Of a stretch of DNA of 64,000 nt, positions 28,472 through 33,540 are shown piece after piece. The translations under genes and the position numbers were made by a program. The DNA is taken from positions 3,038,001 through 3,102,000 of the forward strand of contig NZ_CP023559.1 of the NCBI RefSeq assembly GCF_003006155.1. The letters run 5' to 3'. Numbering within the stretch: position 1 is the first letter of the stretch; each line of letters opens with the position of its first letter. The notes under the pieces were generated by a model. That model did not search any database. It was not told the origin of the DNA and saw only the letters and a program-made list of their open reading frames with translations. Source of the DNA: Salinicola tamaricis. GTDB taxonomy: Bacteria; Pseudomonadota; Gammaproteobacteria; Pseudomonadales; Halomonadaceae.

Positions 28472-29607
28472 ATGCTGTACGGCAACATCCTGACCCCGGA
28501 GGGCTGGCGCCTGGGCTGGCTGCGCTGGCAGGCAGGGCGGGTGACGTCGATCGACGGTGAGGCGGTCGACCCGACCGCCAACGATCACCCGCGGCTGCTA
28601 CCGGGGTTCGTCGACCTGCACGTGCATGGCGGCGGCGGTGCCGATGCCATGGAGGGGGGCGAGGCCGCGGCGACGCTGGCACGCACCCACATGCGCTTCG
28701 GCACCACCAGCCTGCTGGTCACGACCATGACCGCGCCGCCGGCGGAGATCGAACGTGCCTGCGCGATGCCGCGGCGTGGATCGCCGCGCCCCCCGAACGC
28801 GCCGCGCGGCTGCTCGGCGTGCATCTAGAAGGCCCCTATATCAATCCCGGCAAGCTCGGCGCCCAGCCGCCGCATGCGCGCCCCGGAGTGATCGCGGAGG
28901 TCGAGGCGCTTTTGGCGCTGGCACCGATCCGGCTGTTGACCCTGGCCCCGGAACTCTCCGGGCATGCCGAGCTGATCCGCCATCTGGATGGGCGCGGCGT
29001 GCGGGTGCAGATGGGGCACTCGCTGGGCAGCTACGAAGAGGGGGTAGCGGGGCTTGCCCACGGTGCCCGCGGTTTCACGCACCTGTTCAACGCCATGAGT
29101 GGCCTGCACCATCGCAAGCCGGGCATGGTCGGCGCCGCCCTGGCCCACGCCGAGTACGCCGAGATCATCCCTGACCTGCTACACGTGCACCCGGGGGCGA
29201 TCCGCGCTGCGCTGCGCTGCATTCCGCGGCTCTACGCGGTGACCGACTCCACCGCGGCGGCGGGCATGCCCGATGGTGAGTATCGGCTCGGCGCGCAGCA
29301 GGTCACCAAGTGCCTGGGCGGCGTGCGCCTGGCCGATGGCACGCTCGCCGGCAGCACCCTGACCATGGATCAGGCGCTGCGCAATCTGGTCGCCATCGGT
29401 CTCGATCTGGCCGATGCGGCCCAGCGGCTGTCGCGTTTTCCCGCGGAGTTCCTCGGCGAGCAGGAGATCGGCCGGCTCGCACCCGGCGCCCACGCCGACG
29501 TTGCGGTGATGAGTGCCGATCTCGATCTCGACGCCGTCTATGTCGGCGGGGAGTGTGTCCACCGCCGCGACGCGGCGTCTACCACGGAGACAGACCCATG
29601 TCGCTGA
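28472..29607 (+). CDS. nagA: N-acetylglucosamine-6-phosphate deacetylase (one frameshift)
   Basis: Removes acetate from GlcNAc-6-P to give glucosamine-6-P. About 378 residues. Amidohydrolase metal-site start PGFVDLHVHGGGGADAMEGG, then HLEGPYINPGKLGAQPPHA, the His-rich FTHLFNAMSGLHHRKPGM, and YAVTDSTAAAGMPDGEY with the catalytic Asp. One C is missing near 28758 (GCCTGCG for GCCCTGCG). GAGGAGAG precedes the ATG. It overlaps the next gene by 10 bases. Confidence 0.95.
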
Positions 29608-30618
29608 TGCTGGAAGAGGCACTGAGCGCCCCGCAACGCCTGCGCGAACAGTGGCAGGCCAATGCTGCCGCGATGGCCGCGTTGGGGGGCGAGCTGCGGG
29701 AAGCCGGTCTGCGCGGCGCGGTGACCGTGGCACGTGGCAGCTCCGATCATGCGGCGGCCTATTTTGCCTACCTCGGCATGAAGCGTCTCGGTCTGCCGAT
29801 CGCCTCGATTCCGCCTTCGCTGACCACCCTCGCCGGGACGCCTTGGCGGGTCTCCGGGCAGTTGGCGTTGGCGATCTCGCAGTCCGGGGCGAGCCCCGAT
29901 CTGATCGCTACCCAGCGCGCGCTGGCGGCGGGCGGGGCGCGCACGCTGGCGCTGGTCAACGCGCCCGACTCCGAGCTGGCGGCGGCCTCGCAGCACAACC
30001 TGGGCCTGCACGCCGGGGTCGAGCATAGCGTGGCCGCGACCAAGAGTTATCTCGCGACCCTGGCCGCAGCGGCGCATCTGATCGCGGCCTGGCAGGGCGA
30101 CCCCGAGCTGCTGAGTGCCCTCGAGCGGCTACCCGAGCGGCTGGAAAGCGCCGCCGCCTGCGATTGGCAAGCCGCCGTGGAGGCGCTGAGTGGCGCCGAC
30201 CGGCTGCTGGTGATCGGGCGCGGGGTGGGGCTCGCCGTCGCCCAGGAGGCGGCGCTCAAGTTCAAGGAGACCTGCGGCATTCAGGCCGAGGCGTTCAGCG
30301 CCGCCGAGGTCAAGCATGGCCCGATGGCGCTGATCGAACCCGGCTACCCGGTGCTGGTACTGGCGCCGCCGGGGCCGGATCAGGCCGGCCTGCTCGATCT
30401 GGCGACATGGCTGCGCGGGGTCGGCGCGCGGGTACTGCTGGCGGCGGACGCCAGCGTCGCCGGGCGCGAGCTGGACGTCAATGACGCCGGTCACGACGAT
30501 CTCCAGCCGCTGGCGGTGATCCAGAGCTTCTACGTCATGGCGGCACGTCTGGCGGTGGCCCGGGGCGGGGATCCCGACTGCCCGCGCGCATCTGCAGAAG
30601 GTGACCCGAACACTCTAG
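29598..30618 (+). CDS. nagB2: SIS-domain glucosamine-6-phosphate deaminase (NagB-II/AgaS type), 3' end frameshifted
   Basis: About 339 residues. It makes fructose-6-P and ammonia from glucosamine-6-P by the isomerase-like SIS route instead of the classic NagB. It resembles the isomerase half of GlmS without the glutaminase domain: VARGSSDHAAAYFAYLG, ALAISQSGASPDLIATQ, VEHSVAATKSYLATLAAAA, ALKFKETCGIQAEAFSAAE and VKHGPMALIEPGYPVLVL. A base lost near 30585 hides the canonical tail HLQKVTRTL, which ends at TAG 30616-30618. That stop codon uses the first bases of a MITE-like element, so the insertion sits exactly at the gene end. Fits the Pseudomonas nag cluster order. Confidence 0.9.
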
Positions 30619-30760
30619 GTTATGTACGAAAACTACCTGCGCTTGGCAATACGGCGTTAAAAATCGGCTCAAAATGCTCATTTACACCCCGTAAACTCCG
30701 CGTTTTCGCCAATTTTTGCCTTGTCTTGCCTTCGCTCGCTGACTTTTCGCACAGAACCTA
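30616..30760. mobile_element. 141-bp MITE-like element with terminal inverted repeats and TA duplication
   Basis: AT-richer than its surroundings. The left end GGTTATGTACGAAAACT and the reverse complement of the right end GGTTCTGTGCGAAAAGT differ at only three positions, and both are bounded by TA (30616-30617 and 30759-30760). The inner parts also pair imperfectly over about 60 bases, so the whole could fold as a hairpin. There is no coding capacity. TA duplication and short terminal repeats suggest mobilisation by a Tc1/mariner-like (IS630-type) transposase elsewhere in the genome. It separates nagB from nagF; bases 30761-30860 after it hold no gene. Confidence 0.7.
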
Positions 30761-30860
30761 ATTTTACGCTCGGCCGCTCCCCGTCGCCCCCACTCACTAT
30801 CTCGGGTGGGGGCGAGGGCAGGGCTCTCTCCATCACGCTTTTATCCGCCGCCGGAGGTCT

Positions 30861-33540
30861 CATGGCTGCTTCTCCCCACATGCTCAGTGCGCCCCTGCGA
30901 GGCCTGGTGGTGGCGCTCGGCGATCTACCCGATCCGGTCTTCGCGTCCGAGGCCCTGGGGCCCGGGATCGCGCTCGATCCGCTCGATGACACCCTTCACG
31001 CCCCCTGCGACGGCGAGGTGATCCAGTGTGCGCGGACGCGCCATGCGCTGACCCTGCGTGACGACACCGGTGGTGAGTGGCTGCTGCACCTGGGGCTCGA
31101 TACCGTCGATCTGGCCGGCGACGGCTTTTCCCTGATGGTCGCCGAGGGTGAGCGGGTCATCGCCGGCACGCCGCTACTGCGCTTCGACGCCGATCGGGTG
31201 GCGAGCCAGGCCAAGGCGCTGCTGACACCGATCGTGCTGACCAACGTCGTGGATCAGCGCCTCGAGCTGCTGGTGGCTCCGGGGCAGGTGGTCGAGCGCG
31301 GAGAGCCGCTGCTGCTTTGCCATGGCGAGGTTGGTGGGGGGGCAGACGGCGCGAGCCGCACCGAGACGTTGAGCGATGCGGGGCGTGATGCGACAAGTAG
31401 CACCGACGAATGTACTAGCGAAGGCGCTGAGGCCCGCTGCGAGACGACTGTCGCCGCTGCCCGGTATCCATGCACGCCCGGCGGCGCGTCTGCGTGCCAT
31501 CGCCCGGGCGCATGACGTCTCCCTGCGGCTGGTGGCGGCGGATGGCCGCGAGGCGACGCCGCGAGCGTCAGCGCGCTGCTCAACCTGGGGCTGGTTCAGG
31601 GTAGTCGGGTGACCCTGGTGGCCCGGGGTGCGCAGCGTCAGGCTGCACTCGCCGCCGCCAGCGCGCTGCTGGGCACCGAGGAGGCGTCTGATGTGTCCAC
31701 AGCGCCCGAAGCTGTGTCCGCGGTGCCCGAGACCGCGCCGCCAGTGAGCGGTGCCCGCCATAGGGAAGAGGACTTGCTGCGGGGTATCAGCGCCAGCGCC
31801 GGGATGGCGATCGGTCCGCTTCGCCGCTACGAGCTGCCACTACCGCGGGTCGCTGAGACGGCAGCCGACCCGGCGGCAGAGCGACAGGCGCTGGCGGCAG
31901 CGCTGGAAACGGTTGCCGCGACGCTGGAAAGCGCTCGGCATTCGGCCGACGCCCAGGGTCAACAGGAAGAGGCGGAGATCTTCGACGCCCACTTGGCCTG
32001 GCTGGAGGACCCGGCGCTGCGCGAGGCGGCCGAGCATCATATCGCCGCCGGGTCCAGCGCCGGGCAGGGCTGGTACGCCGCGCTGCAGGCCGAGATCGAG
32101 CGCCTGCGGCAGAGCGAGAGCGCGCTGCTGGCGGCGCGCGTCGACGATCTGCGCGACCTGCAGCGGCGGGTGATGGCGCCGCTGGCAGCGGACGCCGGCG
32201 CCGCCGAAGCCGCGGATGACGATCTCGACGGGGCGATATTGATCGCCCGCGAGATGACGCCGTCACAGTTCGTGGCCGTGGCCGGGCGTATCCAGGGATT
32301 GTGTCTGGCCGCCGGGGGTGCCACTTCGCATCTGGCCATCCTGGCCCGCGCGCGGGGGGTGCCCTGCGTGATGGGGTTGGGCGAGGCGCTGCTCTCGCTC
32401 ACTGCCGAACGTGCCGTGCTCGACGCTACCCATGGCGTGCTCGAGAGCGCGCCCGATGCCGAGCGTCTGGCGGCGCTTGTGGCCGAACGTGAACGCCGAC
32501 AGGCGCAGGCGCGTAGCGCGGCCGAGCAGGCCTGTGCGGCGGTGATCACCCGCGACGGCCGCCAGGTACAGGTTGCGGCCAATGTCGGTTCGGCGGCGGA
32601 GGCGCAGGCGGCCGCGCGGGCGGGTGCCGATGGCGTGGGCCTGCTGCGCAGTGAATTTCTGTTCCTGGGGCGTGCCGCGGCGCCGACCCGCGAAGTCCAG
32701 CGCCGCGAGTATGCCGCGGCGCTGGCCGCGCTCGATGGCAAGCCGGTGATCGTGCGCCTGCTCGATATCGGCGCCGACAAGCAGCTCGACTATCTGAGCC
32801 TGCCGGCGGCGCCCAATCCGGCCCTGGGCGAGCGCGGTATCCGCCTGTGGCAGACCTTTCCCGAGCTGTTCGAGACCCAGCTCGATGCACTGCTGCTGGC
32901 AGGCAACGAGGCGCCGGTGGCGGACGCGGCGACGCCGCTGCAGCTGATGCTGCCGATGGTGAGCGATGTCGGCGAGCTGCGCTGGGTGCGCCAGCGCCTG
33001 GCGGCGCGCGCCGCCGAGCTTGGCATCACCCGGCTGCCGGCCCTCGGGGTGATGATCGAGGTGCCGTCGGCGGCGTTGTGCGCCGTGAGCCTGGCCCGGG
33101 AGGCCGACTTCTTCTCTATCGGCACCAACGACCTGACCCAGTACGTCCTGGCGATGGATCGCGAGGTGGCGGGGTTGGCGGCGCACTGTGACGTGCTCCA
33201 TCCCGGCGTGCTGCGGCTGATCCAGGCCACCCTCGAGGGGGCTCGAGGCCGCTGCCCGGTCGGGGTGTGCGGGGCGGCCGCCGGCGATCCACTGGCGGCG
33301 GCGCTGCTGGTGGCGATGGGGGTCGACGAGCTGTCGCTGGAACCCGCCGGCATCGCCGCTCTCAAGGCGTGGCTGCGCGAACTCGACGCTGCGGCCCTGG
33401 CTGCCCGGGTGCCGGAACTGCTGGCACTCGACGACGGTGCCGCGGTGCGCGCGGTGCTGGCGGCGTGGCTCGATGCCTCGGCACCCCGCGGCTTCGGCGT
33501 GATGAGCGAGCGCCGAGGTCATACTCACAACAAACAGTAG
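30861..33540 (+). CDS. nagF: PTS phosphoryl transfer protein, EIIA-HPr-EI fusion (frameshifted in the HPr part)
   Basis: About 890 residues. It carries phosphate from PEP to the GlcNAc EIICB. Domains in order: glucose-type EIIA (about 1-160; LHAPCDGEV and WLLHLGLDTVDLAG with the phospho-His), HPr (LSPLPGIHARPAARLRAI, active His codon at 31469), then Enzyme I (GISASAGMAIGPL; GGATSHLAILARARGVPCV with the phospho-His codon at 32329; FFSIGTNDLTQYVLAMDRE; ADGVGLLRSEFLF). Breaks lie in the EIIA-HPr linker (about 31375-31440) and near 31555. Pseudomonas aeruginosa NagF has the same fusion. The ATG at 30861 follows CGGAGG. A dedicated EI and HPr make the pathway independent of a general PTS. Confidence 0.93.

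Follow-up and report, generated by a model that had tools for sequence, protein, structure and literature searches.

The 141-bp element at the stop codon of nagB-II in Salinicola tamaricis is explained, with a probability that we put at roughly 0.78, as a non-autonomous MITE-like transposon, mobilized in trans by a transposase of the IS5 family and carrying a persistent hairpin module coupled to new ends. Within the window, that is, the whole stretch of 64,000 nucleotides analyzed, the element occupies positions 30618-30758. The first-pass annotation had described a TA-flanked inverted repeat of lower GC content, and the sequence confirmed this: the 17-bp terminal repeats (left, GGTTATGTACGAAAACT; right, GGTTCTGTGCGAAAAGT) have three mismatches in 17 positions, and the GC content is 47.5% vs 72.3% and 70.5% in the adjoining kilobases. 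The RNA fold of 30610-30770 has a predicted energy of −42.5 kcal/mol (z −4.38), which none of 200 shuffles equaled. The element and its surroundings are composed as follows.

29598-30618, plus strand: host gene, a SIS-domain protein like NagB-II (glucosamine-6-phosphate deaminase); NF046059 at 257.9 bits, below the cut-off of 430.
30616-30617, no strand: left TA target duplication, from the sequence and the YTA flanks in the family; together with base 30618 it makes the nagB-II stop TAG (30616-30618).
30618-30634, plus strand: left terminal inverted repeat, class A (GGTTATGTACGAAAACT), from the alignment; similar ends are found on IS5-family elements of about 916 bp in other genera.
30652-30724, plus strand: conserved 73-nt hairpin core, from covariation and model R1 (89.3 bits, this core being one of the 31 rows from which the model was built).
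30742-30758, minus strand: right terminal inverted repeat, class A, from alignment and sequence.
30759-30760, no strand: right TA target duplication, from the sequence.
30784-30815, plus strand: GC-rich 12-bp hairpin downstream of the element and ahead of the EIIA gene, from the fold and the sequences of relatives.
30862-31515, plus strand: next gene, PTS EIIA domain; frame breaks lie between its ORF and the EI-domain ORF that begins at 31609.

A search of the 64-kb window with model R1 gave one core match only, that at 30652-30724. An Rfam scan of positions 30000-31500 returned no match at the gathering score and one sub-threshold match, which lay outside the element; a scan of 10 loci with related copies returned none.

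We propose that an IS5-family transposase would have recognized the 17-19 bp ends and moved the element in trans into a YTAR target formed by the nagB-II stop codon itself, with duplication of the TA. Because the first base of the element is G, TA plus G would again read as a stop, TAG, and no change in the NagB-II protein is predicted from the sequence. The earlier claim that the element supplies the TAG stop is accordingly right for the G at 30618 and wrong for the T and A, which are target sequence. The right flank, TA followed by ATTTT, predicts a TAA stop before insertion, and the nagB stop was thus probably converted from TAA to TAG. The ORF finder carried the nagB-II frame through the element to the TAA at 30759-30761 because of an extra base at about 30584-30589 (CCGCGCGCAT), which breaks the frame before the stop; the three nearest relatives, G016, G006, and G005, read CCGCGGCAT at this place, and without the extra base nagB-II would end ...HLQKVTRTL-TAG as it does in them. 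This base is likely to be a sequencing or assembly error, since the window genome is listed as 93.25% complete and the PTS neighbors have frame breaks; the breaks between 31440 and 31610, which separate the EIIA and EI ORFs, are probably assembly errors.

The nagB-II orthologue was located in all 18 genomes of the genus, and the empty sites that the first-pass annotation had proposed to look for were found: the element was absent from the nagB-II stop in 17 of the 18 genomes and present in that of the window only. In the three nearest relatives (91-95% identical), which lack the element but share the gene order, the nagB-II end reads TAG and then a spacer. A flank similar to the 30784-30815 hairpin occurs in G006 and G005, both of which lack the element, so this hairpin predates the insertion. 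At the orthologous stop in G011 (L256 from about 2517) there is a remnant of another class, 35 nt of which are 94% identical to the left end in L128 and L169, and the nagB-II stop has therefore been hit at least twice.

In the own genome, a single contig of 4.28 Mb, blastn found at least 44 matches to the element, a lower bound in which 40 of 80 first-look candidates were scored, and the element is therefore not a chance palindrome. All 18 genomes of the genus matched, with 2 to 44 matches each, and the view of the element as multi-copy and MITE-like thus stands. The own-genome matches aligned as 40 copies, 31 of them with recognizable A-, B- or D-type ends on both sides; TA was present at both junctions in 23 of the 31. 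Counts of end patterns with up to two mismatches (177 for class A/B vs 44 in the reversed control; 58 for class C vs 1) suggest that this genome holds, by order of magnitude, about 90 elements. Matches were also found in eight plasmid records, seven from Pseudomonas and one from Halomonas, and the class A consensus had none in phage records. In 79 copies of the window's genus the base 5' of TA on the left was C (65%) or T (24%) in most cases, and on the right likewise C (65%) or T (18%); TA itself was a requirement in delimiting these ends. In class C the duplication is TNA instead (TGA 20, TCA 6, TAA 4, and TTA 1, the remainder of 40 independent copies being imperfect).

When the own-genome copies were aligned, one interior was found between differing ends, which fall into four classes.

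Class A: GGCTTTGTACGAAAA, to which the window copy belongs.
Class B: GGCACTGTCTGAAAAG.
Class C: GAGGGTGTTTACAAA.
Class D: CGCTYTGTCTGAAAA, after TA.

Insertion sequences with the same ends, which the first-pass annotation had suggested searching for, do exist; they occur in other genera and belong to the IS5 family. Among the loci examined from the family, L402, L407, L408, L416, L418, L421, and L423 are bounded by class A ends (TAGG[CT]TTTGTACGAAAAGT type) 916-922 bp apart, one of the two ends departing by one or two bases in L407, L408, L418, and L421; the insertion sequence of L409 has the ends TAGGTTTTGTCCGAAAAGT, and that of L427 (1206 bp) has class C-like ends. Within the genus, class D ends delimit two insertion sequences of about 921 bp, L114 and L115. 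The proteins of L416 (both ORFs), L114, and L427 scored above the cut-off of NCBIfam NF033580 (transpos_IS5_3, IS5 family). PF01609 was found in 5 of the 18 genus genomes, and PF13340 in 41 of the 121 genomes of the family at E 1e-10. The own genome has one PF01609 match, interrupted by an internal stop, and one PF13340 match, below cut-off and with two stops, bounded by class C-like ends. Neither search showed an intact IS5 partner there, so mobility lies in the past or has ended in this genome. The locus of the sole PF01609 match, G000:C1:3372369-3373544 (L088, L108), is a decayed IS5-type element.

Two origins other than trans-mobilization by IS5 have to be weighed against these data. The first-pass annotation attributed the element to a Tc1/mariner-type (IS630) transposase. 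RUP and Correia elements are reportedly linked to IS630. PMC2229807 describes terminal TA as usual in small repeats of this kind. PF13358 (IS630-type), however, had no match in the own genome, the insertion sequences with matching ends scored above the NF033580 cut-off as IS5, and that of class C gave only a weak match to an IS630 model over its N-terminal part (26 bits vs a cut-off of 100); we therefore give the IS630 assignment virtually no credence. That the repeats are ordinary deletion derivatives of one insertion sequence, spread by descent, would be the conventional account, as MITEs usually arise in this way and are commonly viewed as defunct deletion products of a single parent. Against it, the core was inside none of nine insertion-sequence loci with matching ends (the single core match, in L402, lies outside its insertion sequence), internal sequence derived from a parent was not found among the nine, and several end classes share one interior within one genome. 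The repeats thus share only their ends with the insertion sequences examined; an origin by internal deletion is not supported and we consider it very improbable, and a putative mobilization through the shared ends is supported by the sequences. In the IS5 trans-mobilization that we prefer, the interior holds no remains of the insertion sequences examined but a hairpin module, a persistent unit that may have been coupled repeatedly to new ends.

The structure of this module was examined with model R1, built from 31 hand-chosen compact cores. In the 31-row alignment 90.0% of the cells pair, 116 cells have changed on both sides, and the covariation score is 0.419, vs 0.153 for shuffled and 0.080-0.128 for slid alignments. 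The structure was written from one row, and RNAalifold gives the same inner pairs; the outermost helix pairs in 68.9% of cells. The core has the tip TTTAC-N5-GTAAA and covarying stems with internal loops. Its tip helix, a bulged T and TCA are invariant across the 31 rows, these letters being fixed by the search pattern; the covarying pairs lie in the two middle helices, mostly outside that pattern. Also outside it, TC/TC stands on both sides in 24 of the 31 rows, which corresponds to tandem G-A on the bottom strand. Folding with RNA parameters predicts the bottom strand to be the more stable in 128 of 135 copies, and folding with DNA parameters does so in 133 of 135. Hairpin-templated repair could also yield compensatory change, and covariation alone is thus no proof of RNA.

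Scanning genome contigs with the core pattern TRCTCATTTAC-N5-GTAAACT gave at least 117 stretches with at least 123 matches; among the matches listed were Pseudomonas, Halomonas relatives, Salinicola, Marinospirillum, Methylophaga, Nitrosomonadales, Chromatiales, Desulfobacterales, and Bacteroidota. The pattern letters are invariant by construction, and the comparison was therefore made on columns outside the pattern. Of the matches listed, the 26 from Bacteroidota-titled loci were set against the 97 others (L165, from a Pedobacter-titled bin, counted with the latter); each group had a 60% majority base in 29 flanking columns, and the two agreed in 19 of these and differed in 10. Differing inverted ends surround the core in most analyzable loci, including those from Pseudomonas, Nitrosomonadales, and Bacteroidota, some of the listed ends being spurious extensions; the Desulfobacterales contigs end too close to the core for ends to be delimited. 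Model R1 recognized 30 of 31 sources, mostly Bacteroidota, at E 0.01 or better (L165 and L180 among them had also contributed to the model), and it had no match in L239, from a Christensenella bin. It matched 74 of 299 phylum-level genomes and 31 of 154 genera when 16 candidates were scored per genome with strict filters, a count in which lone weak matches may be chance. In at least two bacterial phyla the hairpin module is enclosed in elements whose ends are of many different kinds. Among the open-licence papers listed, no title or abstract opening dealt with this core or with a swapping of ends around a shared core.

We examined the orientation of the copies relative to stop codons. The 236 core matches considered excluded from the start L001-L020, L108-L124, and L242-L269 (duplicates or IS/nagB loci), together with cores less than 470 nt from a locus end and identical centers; 148 had a paired duplication, 88 were dropped, and joining copies with similar flanks left 135 independent ones, some with misplaced ends. 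Forty-six of the 135 lie at stop codons of ORFs of at least 150 codons, 35 in sense only, 7 in antisense only, and 4 in both (p 1.5e-5); the corresponding numbers are 38, 12, and 7 at 100 codons and 32, 6, and 3 at 200, all of these counts resting on ORFs rather than curated genes. With strict A/B/D ends and TA on both sides, the window's genus gave 90 copies, 84 of them independent, of which 33 were at stops (22 sense, 7 antisense, 4 both; p 0.008); at 100 codons the strict set gave 24, 9, and 8 (p 0.014). The sense bias at stops holds, and is weaker under the strict definition of ends. For class C, 45 copies reduced to 40 independent ones, 30 with flanks; with ORFs of 120 codons or more, 21 lay at a stop, of which 16 were sense and 5 antisense (p 0.027). 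In the later loci L350-L389, retrieved once the bias had been noticed, the ratio was 14 vs 2 (p 0.004), a few earlier class C copies, e.g., L349, being in both sets.

Stops of this kind made up 27 of 285 matched YTAR sites in the flanks vs 50 of 132 TA-type copies before joining. Among ORFs that run into the element with no stop at the junction there was little bias (22 on the left, 17 on the right), as against 38 and 11 among those with a stop there. Asymmetry of the target site was considered as the cause of the bias and rejected, as the flanks look symmetric. There was no global orientation bias: in codirectional contexts, by a rough ORF-based gene call, 33 copies were sense and 33 antisense. 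T-runs of at least four beside the stem were likewise symmetric (111 of 135 copies in sense, 117 of 135 in antisense). The gene after sense copies at stop codons was convergent in 16 cases, codirectional in 14, and none was present in 5. With end identity as a proxy for age, copies with at least 14 of 17 identical positions were 19 sense and 5 antisense, and those below it 16 vs 2, numbers that do not separate insertion bias from selection. For the classes of the window's genus the rule at stop codons is that TA or TNA is duplicated and the element starts with G; the duplication and the initial G remake the stop, and many copies can therefore be tolerated without breaking proteins. Neutral insertion does not predict the sense bias of these copies, which is a testable signal.

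Mobilization in trans by IS5 together with a harmless landing in a stop codon explains the nagB case; it leaves unaccounted for the conservation of the core between changing ends, and the sense bias. A dedicated regulatory hairpin of the nag operon, a terminator or attenuator selected at this site, would agree with the strong fold and with the sense orientation at the stop, which is that of most stop-codon copies. It is an improbable reading, given that the other 17 genus genomes lack the element there, that two near relatives without it share the downstream hairpin-forming flank, and that a terminator-like consensus scan of 30400-31000 found no sites (the scan needs an uninterrupted stem and a loop of 3-8, and misses interrupted stems). 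As the nearest relatives also keep the gene order without it, little effect on nag and PTS genes is to be expected beyond the added 3' hairpin. In the mRNA the nagB stop would be followed directly by a long hairpin, which is expected to have no more than a 3'-end role (in stability, processing or partial attenuation), not that of a dedicated switch; an uncoupling of the PTS genes from nagB, suggested in the first-pass annotation, is possible, and for the nag operon the element is probably incidental. The core itself might instead be the mobile or functional unit, recognized as single-stranded DNA or RNA, with the IS ends only one vehicle. REP/RAYT and integron attC hairpins are recognized as single strands, folded and with polarity, and the conserved polarity and covarying stems of the core, the different ends around it, and the sense bias all fit. 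Among the copies examined, however, none clearly moved without inverted ends, and it is largely the search pattern that makes the tip strictly invariant. Some elements of about 52 bp have both ends but lack the core (L097 and L098, read directly; G006:C1:3899328-3899379 and others, deduced from end spacing); they resemble products of deletion between CGCTCG repeats, not empty acceptors. We regard it as rather unlikely that the core itself is the mobile or functional unit.

Returning to the coupling of one module to successive IS ends, a single core with compensatory stem changes occurs between differing IS-like ends in Pseudomonadota and Bacteroidota (and in Desulfobacterales, where the ends are not delimited). 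A conserved core with different ends points to selection acting on the core, and to a means by which so small an element could outlast its transposase; we infer that the core is under selection as folded DNA or RNA and keeps acquiring new ends. More tentatively, and with the odds somewhat against it, the cross-phylum module may be a selfish or functional unit that is passed between pairs of IS ends and kept preferentially at stops, its more stable strand being the template strand of the gene. If so, it would be a mobile 3'-end element living off successive borrowed transposases, with a core active in integration or in 3'-end biology.

Several known repeats resemble the element in part. It shares with REP palindromes and attC a folded strand with polarity, here predicted; REPs lack IS ends, which are present here. 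MITEPsy1 of Pseudomonas syringae, an IS5 MITE of 100 bp, is described in PMC3189936 as inserting at CTAG or YTAA with a 4-bp duplication; our element likewise has IS5-type ends, is non-coding and uses a YTAR target close to CTAG/YTAA, but unlike MITEPsy1, compared by description and not by internal sequence, it belongs to elements that have one core and different ends. The ERIC repeats of enterobacteria are similarly short (less than 200 bp) and have an orientation-dependent effect on mRNA (PMC2229807); by description they are close in size, and the class A consensus had no match in 20,395 E. coli records. The pneumococcal BOX and RUP repeats are modular (BOX) or MITE-like, and BOX encodes the 3' stop codon of 36 annotated CDSs, truncation being not strongly evidenced, according to PMC3049150; unlike these, again by description, our elements have a single core between many different ends.

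Extra modules recur at the same places in several end classes, namely a 52-57 bp module with mini-hairpins and pieces of 14-17 bp. In L100, L103, L105, and L106 the 52-57 bp module, whose mini-hairpins have GAA/TTCG loops, is inserted at one core position; related inserts occur in L075, L083, L085, and L096, which have other end classes. Directly downstream of the class B copy in L066 lies a sequence that resembles a second element end.
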